DNA of 52,363 nt, from contig CAIWRU010000099.1 in the NCBI GenBank assembly GCA_903915155.1, positions 1 through 52,363 of the forward strand, written 5' to 3'. Source of the stretch: an uncultured Mucilaginibacter sp. GTDB taxonomy: Bacteria > Bacteroidota > Bacteroidia > Sphingobacteriales > Sphingobacteriaceae. The stretch's first letter is position 1. Every line of letters starts with the position of its first letter. The position numbers and the translations under genes are program-made. Under the pieces are notes generated by a model, which ran no database searches, was not told the origin of the DNA, and saw only the letters and a program-made list of their open reading frames with translations. Of the stretch, positions 21,481-24,393 are shown in pieces.

Positions 21481-21918
21481 TTATTTAATCTCGATCTGAC
21501 GGCGCACCATTTTGGCTTCTTCGCGTTTGGCGATATCGATGCGGAGGATACCATCTGTATAGGAAGCATCAATCTGGCTGTCGTCAGCGCTTTCGGGCAG
21601 GGTAAAGGAACGCACAAAAGAGCTGTAGCTGTATTCGCGCTTACTGTAGTTTTTGTGGTTGCCCTGGTGATCGGATGATTGCTCCACTGAAATGGTCAGC
21701 TGGTTGCGTTCAAGGTTCAGTTTAAAATCTTCTTTTTTCAGACCGGGCGCAGCGAGTTCCACATGGTAGCTATTTTCGCTTTCGCTGATGTTGACGGCGG
21801 GTACGCGGGTCACCAAGCGGTCGTTGAAAAAAGTGTCGTTGAAGATGGATTCGAAAACATCATTAAAGCCTGGCAATAATGCGTTGTTGCTGTTTGGATT
21901 AAATTTAACTAAGGTCAT
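21481..21918 (-). CDS. Small heat-shock protein, Hsp20/alpha-crystallin family
   Basis: ATP-independent holdase chaperone of 145 residues. It begins MTLVKFNPNSNNALLPGFND. The alpha-crystallin domain spans about 38-138, with VPAVNISESENSYHVELAAPGL, the conserved ALPES-like stretch FTLPESADDSQIDASYTDGIL, and the C-terminal strand. The I-x-I-type tail is reduced to RRQIEIK, where IEI can fill the role. A good ribosome-binding site AAAGGAG lies about seven bases before the ATG. Upstream are overlapping palindromes (22013-22040) and a long phased array, which may be part of its control. Confidence 0.94.
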   Translation of the reverse strand: MTLVKFNPNSNNALLPGFNDVFESIFNDTFFNDRLVTRVPAVNISESENSYHVELAAPGLKKEDFKLNLERNQLTISVEQSSDHQGNHKNYSKREYSYSSFVRSFTLPESADDSQIDASYTDGILRIDIAKREEAKMVRRQIEIK

Positions 21919-22012
21919 GGCCTTTTCTCCTTTAAATAAATTAAAAAATAAACGAACAATAATTAATTAAACTATCGAATGGCAATACAAGTGGTATGCC
22001 AATGCACTCGCG

Positions 22013-22040
22013 CTGAAAAATTTTCAGTTTTAAGCTGAAA
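22013..22040. promoter_or_regulatory. Overlapping palindromes upstream of hsp20
   Basis: CTGAAAAATTTTCAG (22013-22027) is a perfect 7+1+7 palindrome. It overlaps a second inverted repeat, TTTCAG...CTGAAA (22022-22040). They lie about 95-120 bases upstream of the hsp20 start codon. They do not match the CIRCE element. An operator role is an inference. Confidence 0.45.
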
Positions 22041-22264
22041 AAATTTCAAAGAGAGGTGTCATTTTTTCAGTTCTCGAAAAAGAAATAAAGCGGAGGGGAT
22101 TCTTCCGCGCGCTCCGTAGGAGTCCTTCGGACAGGCCAGGCTCGCGGCTCGCCCCCTCTTTCGGATGTGCCTTTGCGCGCTTATGAGATAAAGGTGTTGT
22201 TCATTTTTGTTCAATTCGCGTGAACACTACAAAATATTAACCAGTTGAAGAATAGCGACTTAAC

Positions 22265-22393
22265 TGTTTAGGGGTGTTTGGGTCTGTTCAGTTTTGTTTC
22301 GGTTTGTTTGGGTGCGTTTGGGTTCTGTTTATGGGGTGTTTAGGTGCTGTTTAGGTACCGTTCAGGTGTGTTTAGGTTCTGTTTGGGTTGTTA
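22265..22393. repeat. Helically phased GTT(T)nGGT array
   Basis: A degenerate tandem array, unit about GTTTnGGTnCT. GTT occurs at 22266, 22276, 22286, 22296, 22306, 22316, 22327, 22338, 22349, 22360, 22370, 22381 and 22390: thirteen times with spacings of 10 or 11 (last 9). The plus strand is almost free of A and C in this stretch. It contains several GGG tracts. Confidence 0.85.
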
Positions 22394-22454
22394 CAAAAAC
22401 CTGACACACAGTAAAATATGAACATTGAAAATCCTGCAAAAAAGGCACTAATTA

Positions 22455-24050
22455 TTACTGTACTTTAACCGCTATCGTGGGCGAGCGGTCGCTTTCATTT
22501 TTAAGTCTGTCGAGGGCAGTTATTACATACAGATAAGTTTTGCCTCTTTGTACCGTGTTATCCTGGTAGGTTGTGGCATTATTGTAAATAATATGCAATA
22601 TGTTTTGCGGGTTAGTAAGGTCTATCTTATCAGTATCGCCAAAACGATAGATAACATATCCGTAAGCAGGTTCATTGTCTGACGCAGGCAAAGGTGTTTG
22701 CCAGTTTAGCGTTACACCTTGCCCCGTTGGCTTTGCTACCAGGTGCTGCGGTACATTTGGCGGGACAGAATCGAGCCATAGCATAGGCGGTGGCAACGCT
22801 GAGTACTTATAAAAGTTGGTATGCAATGAATCGGCGATGCCTAAAAAATTATTGGTAAGTGAATTCGAGCTAAAAAATACACTGCCTTCAATACGCGGGT
22901 TGTTGCGTAGGTGGCGTATTTCGTTGGGTATTTCGTTGGGTATTTTATATGCGGCCGATGCCTTGGAATGCTCATGTGCACGATACGGGGCCTGCCCTAT
23001 GTATAAATGCCGGTTAAAGGTATTGTTGCTCCACCAGTTTATCAAAGTATCAAAGTTTGCTAAACGGCTGTTAAGTGCCCAGTATAGTTGCGGCACTACA
23101 TAATCCACCCATCCTTCTTTCATCCATTTGCGGGCATCGGCATAGTTTTCATAATAAGATGAGCCGCCATGGGTATCGGAACCATCAGGATTTTGATGTT
23201 TATTGGCCCAGATACCAAAAGGGCTTACACCAAATTTAACGCGGGGCTTATGTGCGTGTATGCTATCGCCCAGGGCCTGTATCAGCGTATCAACATTGTG
23301 GCGACGCCATTCTTTTATATCGCTAAAATTAGCGCCGTATAACCGGAAGGCGGCGGTATCATTTATTTTTTGGCCATCGATTAAGTATGGGTAAAAGTAA
23401 TCATCCATGTGTATGCCGTCTACATCGTAATTATCCAATACATTTAAAATAACGTGGATAATGTATTCGCGCACCTCGGGCAAACCGGGGTTGAATAGCT
23501 TTTGTCCGCCATAAATAAAAAACCATTCGGGCCTTAAATTGGTGATATGGTTTGGGCTTAGCGCGTAATATTTATTGTCGTTAGTAGCGCGGTAAGGGTT
23601 GAACCAGGCATGCAGTTCGATACCGCGTTTATGCGCTTCAGTTATAGCAAACTGTAGTGGGTCGTACATAGGAGTTGGCGCTGCACCTTGTTGGCCGTTA
23701 AGCCATTTTGACCATGGCTCGGTGCCTTTGGCGTAAAAGGCATCGGCGGCGGGCCTAACCTGGAAAAAAACTGCGTTTATACCTGTGCGCTGATGTGCAT
23801 CCAATATATCAACAAGCTGTTGTTGCTGTTCAAAGGCTGTTTGGCCTTTTGCGGGCCAGTCGATATTCTCTACCGTCGCTATCCAAACACCGCGGAACTC
23901 GCGCTTAGGAGAGATTCTATATCTTAATAAGGTATCCTTAATTAACTGCGTGCTATCGGTATGTTTAATTAGCGTATCCTTTTGGGCTACTGCTTTTTGA
24001 ACAACCAATAATATAAGGGTAAACAGTATAATAATTTTGTATAAACGCAT
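22455..24050 (-). CDS. Secreted GH10-like (GHL10/DUF187) glycoside hydrolase
   Basis: Exported carbohydrate-active protein of 531 residues. The signal peptide is MRLYKIIILFTLILLVVQKA...AQ. The catalytic barrel (about 45-400) has FRGVWIATVENIDWP, INAVFFQVRPAADAFY, ELHAWFNPYR, DGIHMDDYFYPY and KFGVSPFGIW motifs, as in the YngK/DigH group, which is linked to glycan and denuded-peptidoglycan cleavage in other bacteria. A fibronectin-III-like C-terminal domain (about 440-531) follows. The start at 24050 is chosen because the signal peptide begins there; the frame runs to 24095. The actual substrate is not known. Confidence 0.88.
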   Translation of the reverse strand: MRLYKIIILFTLILLVVQKAVAQKDTLIKHTDSTQLIKDTLLRYRISPKREFRGVWIATVENIDWPAKGQTAFEQQQQLVDILDAHQRTGINAVFFQVRPAADAFYAKGTEPWSKWLNGQQGAAPTPMYDPLQFAITEAHKRGIELHAWFNPYRATNDNKYYALSPNHITNLRPEWFFIYGGQKLFNPGLPEVREYIIHVILNVLDNYDVDGIHMDDYFYPYLIDGQKINDTAAFRLYGANFSDIKEWRRHNVDTLIQALGDSIHAHKPRVKFGVSPFGIWANKHQNPDGSDTHGGSSYYENYADARKWMKEGWVDYVVPQLYWALNSRLANFDTLINWWSNNTFNRHLYIGQAPYRAHEHSKASAAYKIPNEIPNEIRHLRNNPRIEGSVFFSSNSLTNNFLGIADSLHTNFYKYSALPPPMLWLDSVPPNVPQHLVAKPTGQGVTLNWQTPLPASDNEPAYGYVIYRFGDTDKIDLTNPQNILHIIYNNATTYQDNTVQRGKTYLYVITALDRLKNESDRSPTIAVKVQ

Positions 24051-24393
24051 TAACGCAGGTGTTATTAAAGCCGCAAAGATATAAAACTCTGCCAACTGCT
24101 ATTTTATTATGCGGTATAATAAATGCGGTATTTTTGTGTTTTTATCATATTGTAATTACTTTAGGAACTATTACCTAAAGAAATTTAACCTATGCGAAAT
24201 ATTATTGTTTCATTTTTGGTTCTTCTACCCGTATTTAAATAATTATCACAAGTGTTAATATATGCTTGCGCATTTCAAATACCGGGGCGTACAACAAAAC
24301 AAAATTTGGGTTTACTTGCTTATTGAAATATAAATAATTAAAAAACAATCAATTCCATATCAGGAAACATAAACAAAACTAAAAACAATTACC
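24051..24393. other. Non-coding gap with possible leader-peptide remnant
   Basis: A 343-base AT-rich gap between divergent genes. It contains a direct repeat ATGCGGTAT (near 24110 and 24124) and a 16-codon frame at 24192-24242 that reads like a signal-peptide start (MRNIIVSFLVLLPVFK) and then stops. No convincing promoter match was found. Confidence 0.5.

Follow-up and report, generated by a model that had tools for sequence, protein, structure and literature searches.

A phased GTT array within a 52,363-nucleotide contig of an uncultured Mucilaginibacter sp. (CAIWRU010000099.1, positions 1-52,363; hereafter, the window) is no isolated stretch of low complexity but the core of a repeat interspersed between genes. 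The genome holding the window (G000; other genomes likewise carry G-numbers, and extracted loci L-numbers) contains 24 near-complete copies of this repeat and two fragments. Its dispersal, its phasing, the constraint on the cores of its units and the arrays of similar design in some relatives were directly observed, and on this basis we propose that the dispersed half-site array would serve as a platform on which a protein assembles, keeping to one face of the DNA, a reading to which we assign a probability of about 0.5.

In the window, GTT recurs 13 times at steps of 10, 10, 10, 10, 10, 11, 11, 11, 11, 10, 11 and 9 bases, exactly the 10- and 11-base recurrence with a last step of 9 that the initial annotation had reported. 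The array proper comprises the first twelve GTT-led units (22266-22387, forward strand), as delimited by their spacings, by unit-by-unit conservation and by a chance test. These units run in one direction throughout and follow the consensus GTTTRGG plus a linker of 3-4 bases; the thirteenth GTT (22390) was counted as chance since most other copies have TTATG there. GTT chains with steps of 10 or 11 had at most 12 members on the plus strand and 2 on the minus strand, while dinucleotide-preserving shuffles of the window (n = 60) gave chains of 2 or 3 only; a chain of 12 at these steps is far beyond chance. The 122 bases of 22266-22387 include 58 T, 46 G, 10 C and 8 A; the initial annotation had described the plus strand as nearly free of A and C. 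Tandem Repeats Finder reported a weak array, with 69% matches at period 10 and 67% at period 11, together with a period of 32 that covers part of the array with 79% matches.

The array as first described is real, yet its extent had been drawn too small, as conserved modules flank it on both sides. A blastn search of G000 with window positions 22200-22460 (matches kept at E 10 or better) returned 35 matches, of which 24 were strong (E 1e-18 or better, with the window copy among them), two were partial and nine were weak (E 0.2 or worse); the weak matches were taken for chance. From this search and the alignment of the 24 copies, the whole element spans about 231 bases (22196-22426, forward strand); it measures 220-241 bases among the aligned copies, and outside it likeness is lost and the flanks are unrelated. 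The left module (22196-22265, forward strand) carries GTTCA at 22199 and 22209, 10 bases apart, followed by an inverted TGAAC (22221-22225) and then AT-rich sequence, and the right module (22388-22426, forward strand) ends in an inverted TGAAC (22419-22423). The GTTC of the left end is present in 18 of the 24 copies, the TGAAC within the left module in 20 and that of the right module in all 24. Pairwise identity among the copies averages 74% (range 65-90%), which marks them as old relative to each other. No copy overlaps an open reading frame (ORF) of at least 100 amino acids by more than 60 bases, whereas just 11.6% of placements drawn at random on these loci came out clear by the same criterion; lowering the ORF limit brought a few small overlaps. 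A short dispersed repeat around CGAAATTCGAAAT (L059, 2249-2293; positions 950-993 of the query) lies close to some element copies and matched tens of places across the eight relatives searched.

The window copy lies between two genes on the reverse strand, given here as context only and called by greedy ORF picking and not by annotation: an hsp20 gene (21481-21918; Pfam HSP20, E 2.3e-23) and a GHL10 gene (22455-24095; Pfam GHL10, E 2.5e-74). The array starts 348 bases from the hsp20 start codon and ends 68 bases from the GHL10 stop, in agreement with its earlier placement about 350 bases upstream of hsp20 and after the stop of a GH10-like gene. At the hsp20 loci compared in relatives (n = 29), none of the significant matches extended past window position 22070. 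Because these loci match only up to that point and the other copies lie elsewhere, the association with hsp20 looks incidental. Upstream of hsp20, beside its conserved leader, an AT-rich inverted repeat (22010-22048) gave matches of 14-39 bases, in both orientations, at the hsp20 loci of several relatives and is possibly a regulatory palindrome. As to whether copies keep to one gene side or fall at random, they sit in other places with no consistent promoter position: flanking-gene pairs, small overlapping ORFs included, were (+,-) in 7 copies, (-,-) in 10, (+,+) in 4 and (-,+) in 3. In 17 of the 24 copies the right-end gene is oriented toward the element, a bias too weak to build on.

The phasing is a property of the family and not of the window copy alone. 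Unit spacing averages 10.4-10.6 bases in each of the 22 copies (of 24) in which it was measured, L049 and L053 being the two that could not be chained. These 22 copies share the pattern 10, (10 or 11), 10, 10, 10, 11, 11, 11, 11, 10, 11, the exceptions being L041, which ends in 11, 10, and the length variants; in three copies the last steps are 9 or 12 and run into the right module. Exactly 11 bases of the array are missing in three copies and 10 are extra in one, and its other indels are confined to two single-base columns, as against seven indel columns in the shorter left module. Column information across the array showed a spectral peak near 10.75 bases that none of 10,000 column shuffles matched in strength, the observed power having been maximised over more periods than the shuffles. 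By unit offset, the G-T-T-T and G-G positions are 92-100% conserved, and the fifth base and the linkers 72-85%. Since the core is the more conserved among T columns (97% vs 80% elsewhere in the array) and G columns (95% vs 81%) alike, this is not a base effect. The spacing, the length changes (mostly by whole units) and the periodic conservation seen over the 24 copies support the original suggestion that the helical phasing is meaningful and that one face of the DNA might be read.

The constraint also persists on terminal branches. On a FastTree phylogeny, the 72 core columns averaged 0.58 terminal-branch changes each, as against 2.59 for the 39 linker columns, 3.43 for the 70 columns of the left module and 2.74 for the 39 of the right module, a 4.5-fold reduction at the GTTT.GG positions relative to the linkers. 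Because the core is constrained on terminal branches, and these make up most of the tree (4.08 of a total of 4.89), the copies seem to have come under selection individually, once they had been dispersed.

The sequence itself was found in G000 alone, in searches where the limited number of candidates scored per genome means that weak copies could be missed: no full match came from blastn against 40 relatives (at most 18 candidates scored in each, E 1e-5), a sequence-only covariance model run on 149 genomes of the genus including G000 (14 candidates scored in each, E 0.001) gave full matches in G000 only, and so did blastn with another copy against 201 genomes of the family including G000 (three candidates scored in each, E 0.001). 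The plasmids and phages searched gave no full match either. Apart from these, the covariance search returned two weak matches, in G010 (L073) and G023 (L074), and the latter was judged by eye to be chance. A pattern of three GTTYRGG units at steps of 10 or 11 was positive in 6 of the 149 genus genomes (70 matches in G000, 26 in G010 and one each in G014, G129, G132 and G140), whereas its backward control matched nowhere except twice in G010. Two such units matched in 118 of the 149 genomes, mostly at control level, with a clear excess over control in G000 (120/2), G077 (57/0), G010 (59/17), G014 (16/2) and G129 (13/3); in G058 four identical matches stood against one control match. In a family sample of 399 genomes the three-unit pattern gave seven positives, spread over 4 of the 25 genera. 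Its 8 matches in 4 genomes outside the genus were fewer than those of its backward control (55 in 18 genomes), so the GTTYRGG pattern, which is blind to units such as the GTTCCGG of G019, gives no evidence for arrays there. The backward control GGRYTTG at 10 or 11 bases matched 12, 6 and 11 times in G224, G241 and G412, all of other genera, and these genomes may hold one-turn arrays of another unit. A single 11-base tandem array of GTTYGGGAAGC was seen in a further genus of the family (L283, G306:C4:251476-251548), and a scan of genome contigs returned 48 stretches from many phyla.

Arrays of similar layout and other letters were nevertheless observed in some relatives. The G010 match (L073) is a phased array of the unit GTTCGGGC[TA]T, and as a blastn query inside G010 it returned 36 matches (E 1 or better). 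Examination of 43 G010 loci yielded 30 distinct arrays of 2-7 units, the rest repeating the same arrays and three showing no array by regular expression. Within 110 bases behind the array, GAAC is present in 24 of the 30 (11 times as GCGAACGCGAACA) and absent in six, and the flanking-gene pairs of the 30 were (++) 9, (--) 8, (+-) 8 and (-+) 5. G014, G129 and G132 each have one three-unit array adjoining a GTTCG/CGAAC inversion; the three-unit array of G140 has no such inversion in view. A shorter core, GTTCGGGCTTGTTCGGGCTGTTCGCG..CGAACGCGAACAAG, is found repeatedly in G077 and G058; some of its G077 occurrences lie within an element that looks mobile, and at one G077 locus (L164 from about 2505, G077:C12:35504-35980) seven such cores stand in a row as a tandem array, mostly 67 bases apart.

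G019, the closest relative by hsp20 (92% identity), was scanned de novo over 800 kb. Two long arrays of GTTCCGGRGT/GTTCCGCTNY were the only chains of at least seven identical 3-mers at steps of 10 or 11, and none of this length occurred at control steps of 8/9, 13/14 or 7/8. Both end in an inverted GGAACACC or GGAACGCC, and they resemble recent expansions by 10, 20 or 30 bases. Only such long chains are informative, since chains of at least five (9 at 10/11) were about as common at control steps (4 at 8/9, 7 at 13/14, 14 at 7/8 and 5 at 11/12). A G019 palindrome, GTTCC..GGAACAC, was set aside: its five matches at three places compare with two in G013 stretches, one in G000 stretches and two for the reversed control in G019. 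Chains of at least six in G011 and G013 (400 kb from each genome) included no GTT-led array; steps of 10/11 gave 0 and 1, the single chain being a T-run, and control steps 0-3. In 388 kb of G000 outside the copies there was no chain of at least six at 10/11, and there were nine at 7/8. Degenerate repeats with a 7-8-base step (e.g. TTCAATATTCGACATTCAGTATTCAG) recur in G000, at L341 (13550-13595) and in other stretches. Steps in the G010 and G019 arrays are 10 with an occasional 9 and average below 10 in the three arrays measured, so an exact 10.5-base register is not general. Phased GTT arrays thus recur in the genus with different letters, though not in every species or stretch sampled. Compared by layout and not as homologues, the arrays of different species appear to share a GTT-led half-site that is directly repeated roughly every turn and in most cases followed by an inverted half-site. 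Such an arrangement would be expected of a protein that occupies one face and assembles cooperatively.

One alternative is a chance GT-rich tract of low complexity. The GT-rich composition would fit it, as would the finding that relatives lack the G000 sequence at the E limits used, an outcome that the initial annotation had named as pointing to such a tract. It is refuted by the 24 in-register copies, the shuffles stop at chains of three, and some relatives have phased arrays built from different sequence; we regard its probability as negligible.

A more serious alternative, which we hold to be possible though distinctly short of probable, is a non-autonomous mobile element like a miniature inverted-repeat transposable element (MITE) that carries a minisatellite, the period being an accident of its founding unit and the conservation reflecting nothing but the needs of a transposase. 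The many dispersed non-coding, intergenic copies (24 and two fragments) with short, imperfect inverted ends of about 5-7 bases (left GTTC in 18 of 24, right TGAAC in 24 of 24) would suit it, as would the element around the related G077 core, in which three copies with both ends recognised, among the 23 places shown, have, as we read them, flanking direct repeats of 8-11 bases. The expansion-like G019 arrays and the BrickBuilt element of Porphyromonas gingivalis, described as a MITE with a 23-base tandem repeat (PMC4596501, main text), point the same way. However, none of the 24 G000 copies scored 8 or more for a target-site duplication (own flanks mean 4.6, crossed flanks 4.9), although target duplications of old copies may since have been lost. 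A search for empty sites at two loci found no clean one in relatives, where the flanking genes lie further apart or were not both found together. The persistence of core constraint on terminal branches weighs against this alternative, as a dead mobile element would not show such copy-by-copy selection, and so does the fact that different units stay close to one turn in several species. A link to RAYT transposases was rejected, as none of 20 Y1_Tnp loci in seven genomes had two phased GTTYRGG units or CGAACGCGAAC. Many of these Y1 (RAYT-like) transposase genes (L170-L189) are, by eye, edged by short palindromes of their own, some in tandem arrays.

Curvature from phased T-tracts had also been suggested. 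The G000 family is predicted to bend by a mean of 111 degrees, against 42 in shuffles, with an end-to-end ratio of 0.755 against 0.927; the window copy alone is predicted to bend by 88 degrees, and 3% of its own 200 shuffles were as curved. For the G010 and G019 arrays, 49%, 18% and 7% of shuffles were at least as curved. The suggestion thus holds as a prediction for the G000 family and not for the relatives, whose arrays are not clearly curved, so that curvature is at most an aid and probably not a shared property of the arrays. This bears on a further explanation, a wrapping site at which DNA gyrase or a histone-like protein senses phased bendability and not the letters, as in BIME-2 and strong gyrase sites. 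The predicted bend would fit, and the Escherichia coli gyrase motif is described as spanning about 130 bases, with arms of 10.75-base GC periodicity, gyrase cleaving intergenic BIME-2 (PMC6379681, in the parts cited). Yet the constraint here is letter-specific, on GTTT and GG, and G010 arrays, besides not being clearly curved, go down to two units (by regular expression), all of which makes this explanation rather unlikely. A role in RNA, raised on account of the G-tracts, is unlikely too. No compensatory change was found among 23 predicted pairs on the plus strand, no pair was predicted on the minus strand, no REP-type palindrome with a conserved hairpin was found, and Rfam gave no match above the gathering score within 900 bases; its sole match, which lies outside the element, scored 17.5 bits (cut-off 86; E 2.7).

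In the one-face assembly that we propose, the working part would be the row of twelve direct 7-base half-sites (GTTTRGG), each roughly a helical turn from the next, and inverted half-sites (GAAC) lie close to the element ends. A candidate DNA-binding protein would recognise the half-site and bind at every turn on the same face, assembling side by side into a filament or a wrap of about 125 bases, and the T-tracts of the G000 version might add intrinsic bending that eases assembly. A precedent is PhoP, which binds 7-base repeats with 4-base spacers cooperatively and in tandem (PMC4832192, in the parts cited). The strict 4-base spacer of PhoP counts against a close parallel; the mixture of 3- and 4-base spacers with a mean near that of B-DNA suggests that overall register would matter more than a fixed protein-protein step. 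Of the purposes considered, namely organising the chromosome, setting a topological or transcriptional boundary between genes and controlling a mobile element, we lean to a chromosome-structuring site. Several observations tell against the proposal: the protein is itself only inferred, spacing means fall below 10 in G019 and G010, six of the 30 G010 arrays lack GAAC within 110 bases and G140 has none in sight, no GTT-led array occurs in the 400 kb each of G011 and G013, G019 chains of at least five are as common at control steps, and outside the genus the backward control beats the three-unit pattern (55/18 vs 8/4).

The same layout could instead represent a regulatory or decoy array, made of sites for a response regulator of the OmpR/PhoB type that a mobile carrier has spread. 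Direct 7-base repeats with 3-4-base spacers agree with it, and PhoP is reported to bind more tightly to three and four repeats than to two (PMC4832192, in the parts cited). We nonetheless consider it very unlikely, in that the spacing is not fixed, 10 and 11 being mixed in every chained copy, the copies have no consistent promoter position (flanking pairs +- 7, -- 10, ++ 4 and -+ 3), and twelve sites far exceed the known cases found.

With considerable reservation, the one-face assembly could be extended to a new kind of chromosomal site, in which intergenic platforms serve a fast co-evolving protein that polymerises over some twelve turns in a centromere-like or nucleoid-organising role. Letters that differ by species (GTTTRGG, GTTCGGG, GTTCCGG), with near one-turn spacing and the inverted end site persisting, would be expected of such a centromere-like or nucleoid-organising system in this bacterial group. 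Interspersed bacterial repeats are often dismissed as debris. Here, the paralogues amount to natural mutagenesis: across the 24 diverged copies, the positions left unchanged come round about once per helical turn, and such periodic sparing would make the face being read visible from sequence alone. Should a protein be found, the assembly would be long and cooperative, and a single genome would already supply 24 sites on which to test it, with comparable sets in some relatives.

Among known systems, the ParMRC centromere parC consists of direct repeats near 11 bases that are cooperatively bound by a small protein; it is a plasmid locus beside its own par genes, whereas the G000 element has 24 chromosomal copies. 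PhoP-type OmpR/PhoB sites share the 7-base direct repeats about one turn apart and head-to-tail cooperative binding, but have, in the parts cited, a strict 4-base spacer and few repeats at promoters (PMC4832192), in contrast to the 3-4-base spacers, twelve units and dispersal seen here. BIME-2 and strong gyrase sites are likewise intergenic and dispersed, with a function at the DNA level and phasing near 10.75 bases over about 130 bases; BIMEs are, as there described, palindromic REPs, and the G000 element is built of directional half-sites with fixed letters (PMC6379681, PMC12393610). The nearest described design that we found is BrickBuilt of P. gingivalis, a bacterial MITE holding tandem repeats, which also belongs to the Bacteroidota, is intergenic (19 copies, 24 here) and has a leader, tandem repeats and a tail, with small inverted ends and a variable repeat number (PMC4596501). 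Its unit is 23 bases long and repeated 1 to 22.8 times, and its main text mentions no helical phasing, the words 'helical' and 'bend' occurring 0 times there (PMC4596501), whereas the G000 element has units of 10-11 bases with constrained cores in nearly fixed number. In the open-licence literature searched, no dispersed family whose arrays are constrained at one-turn intervals was seen to be described, in itself a weak statement, and there is a fair chance that the element, though of a known repeat kind, is new in function.
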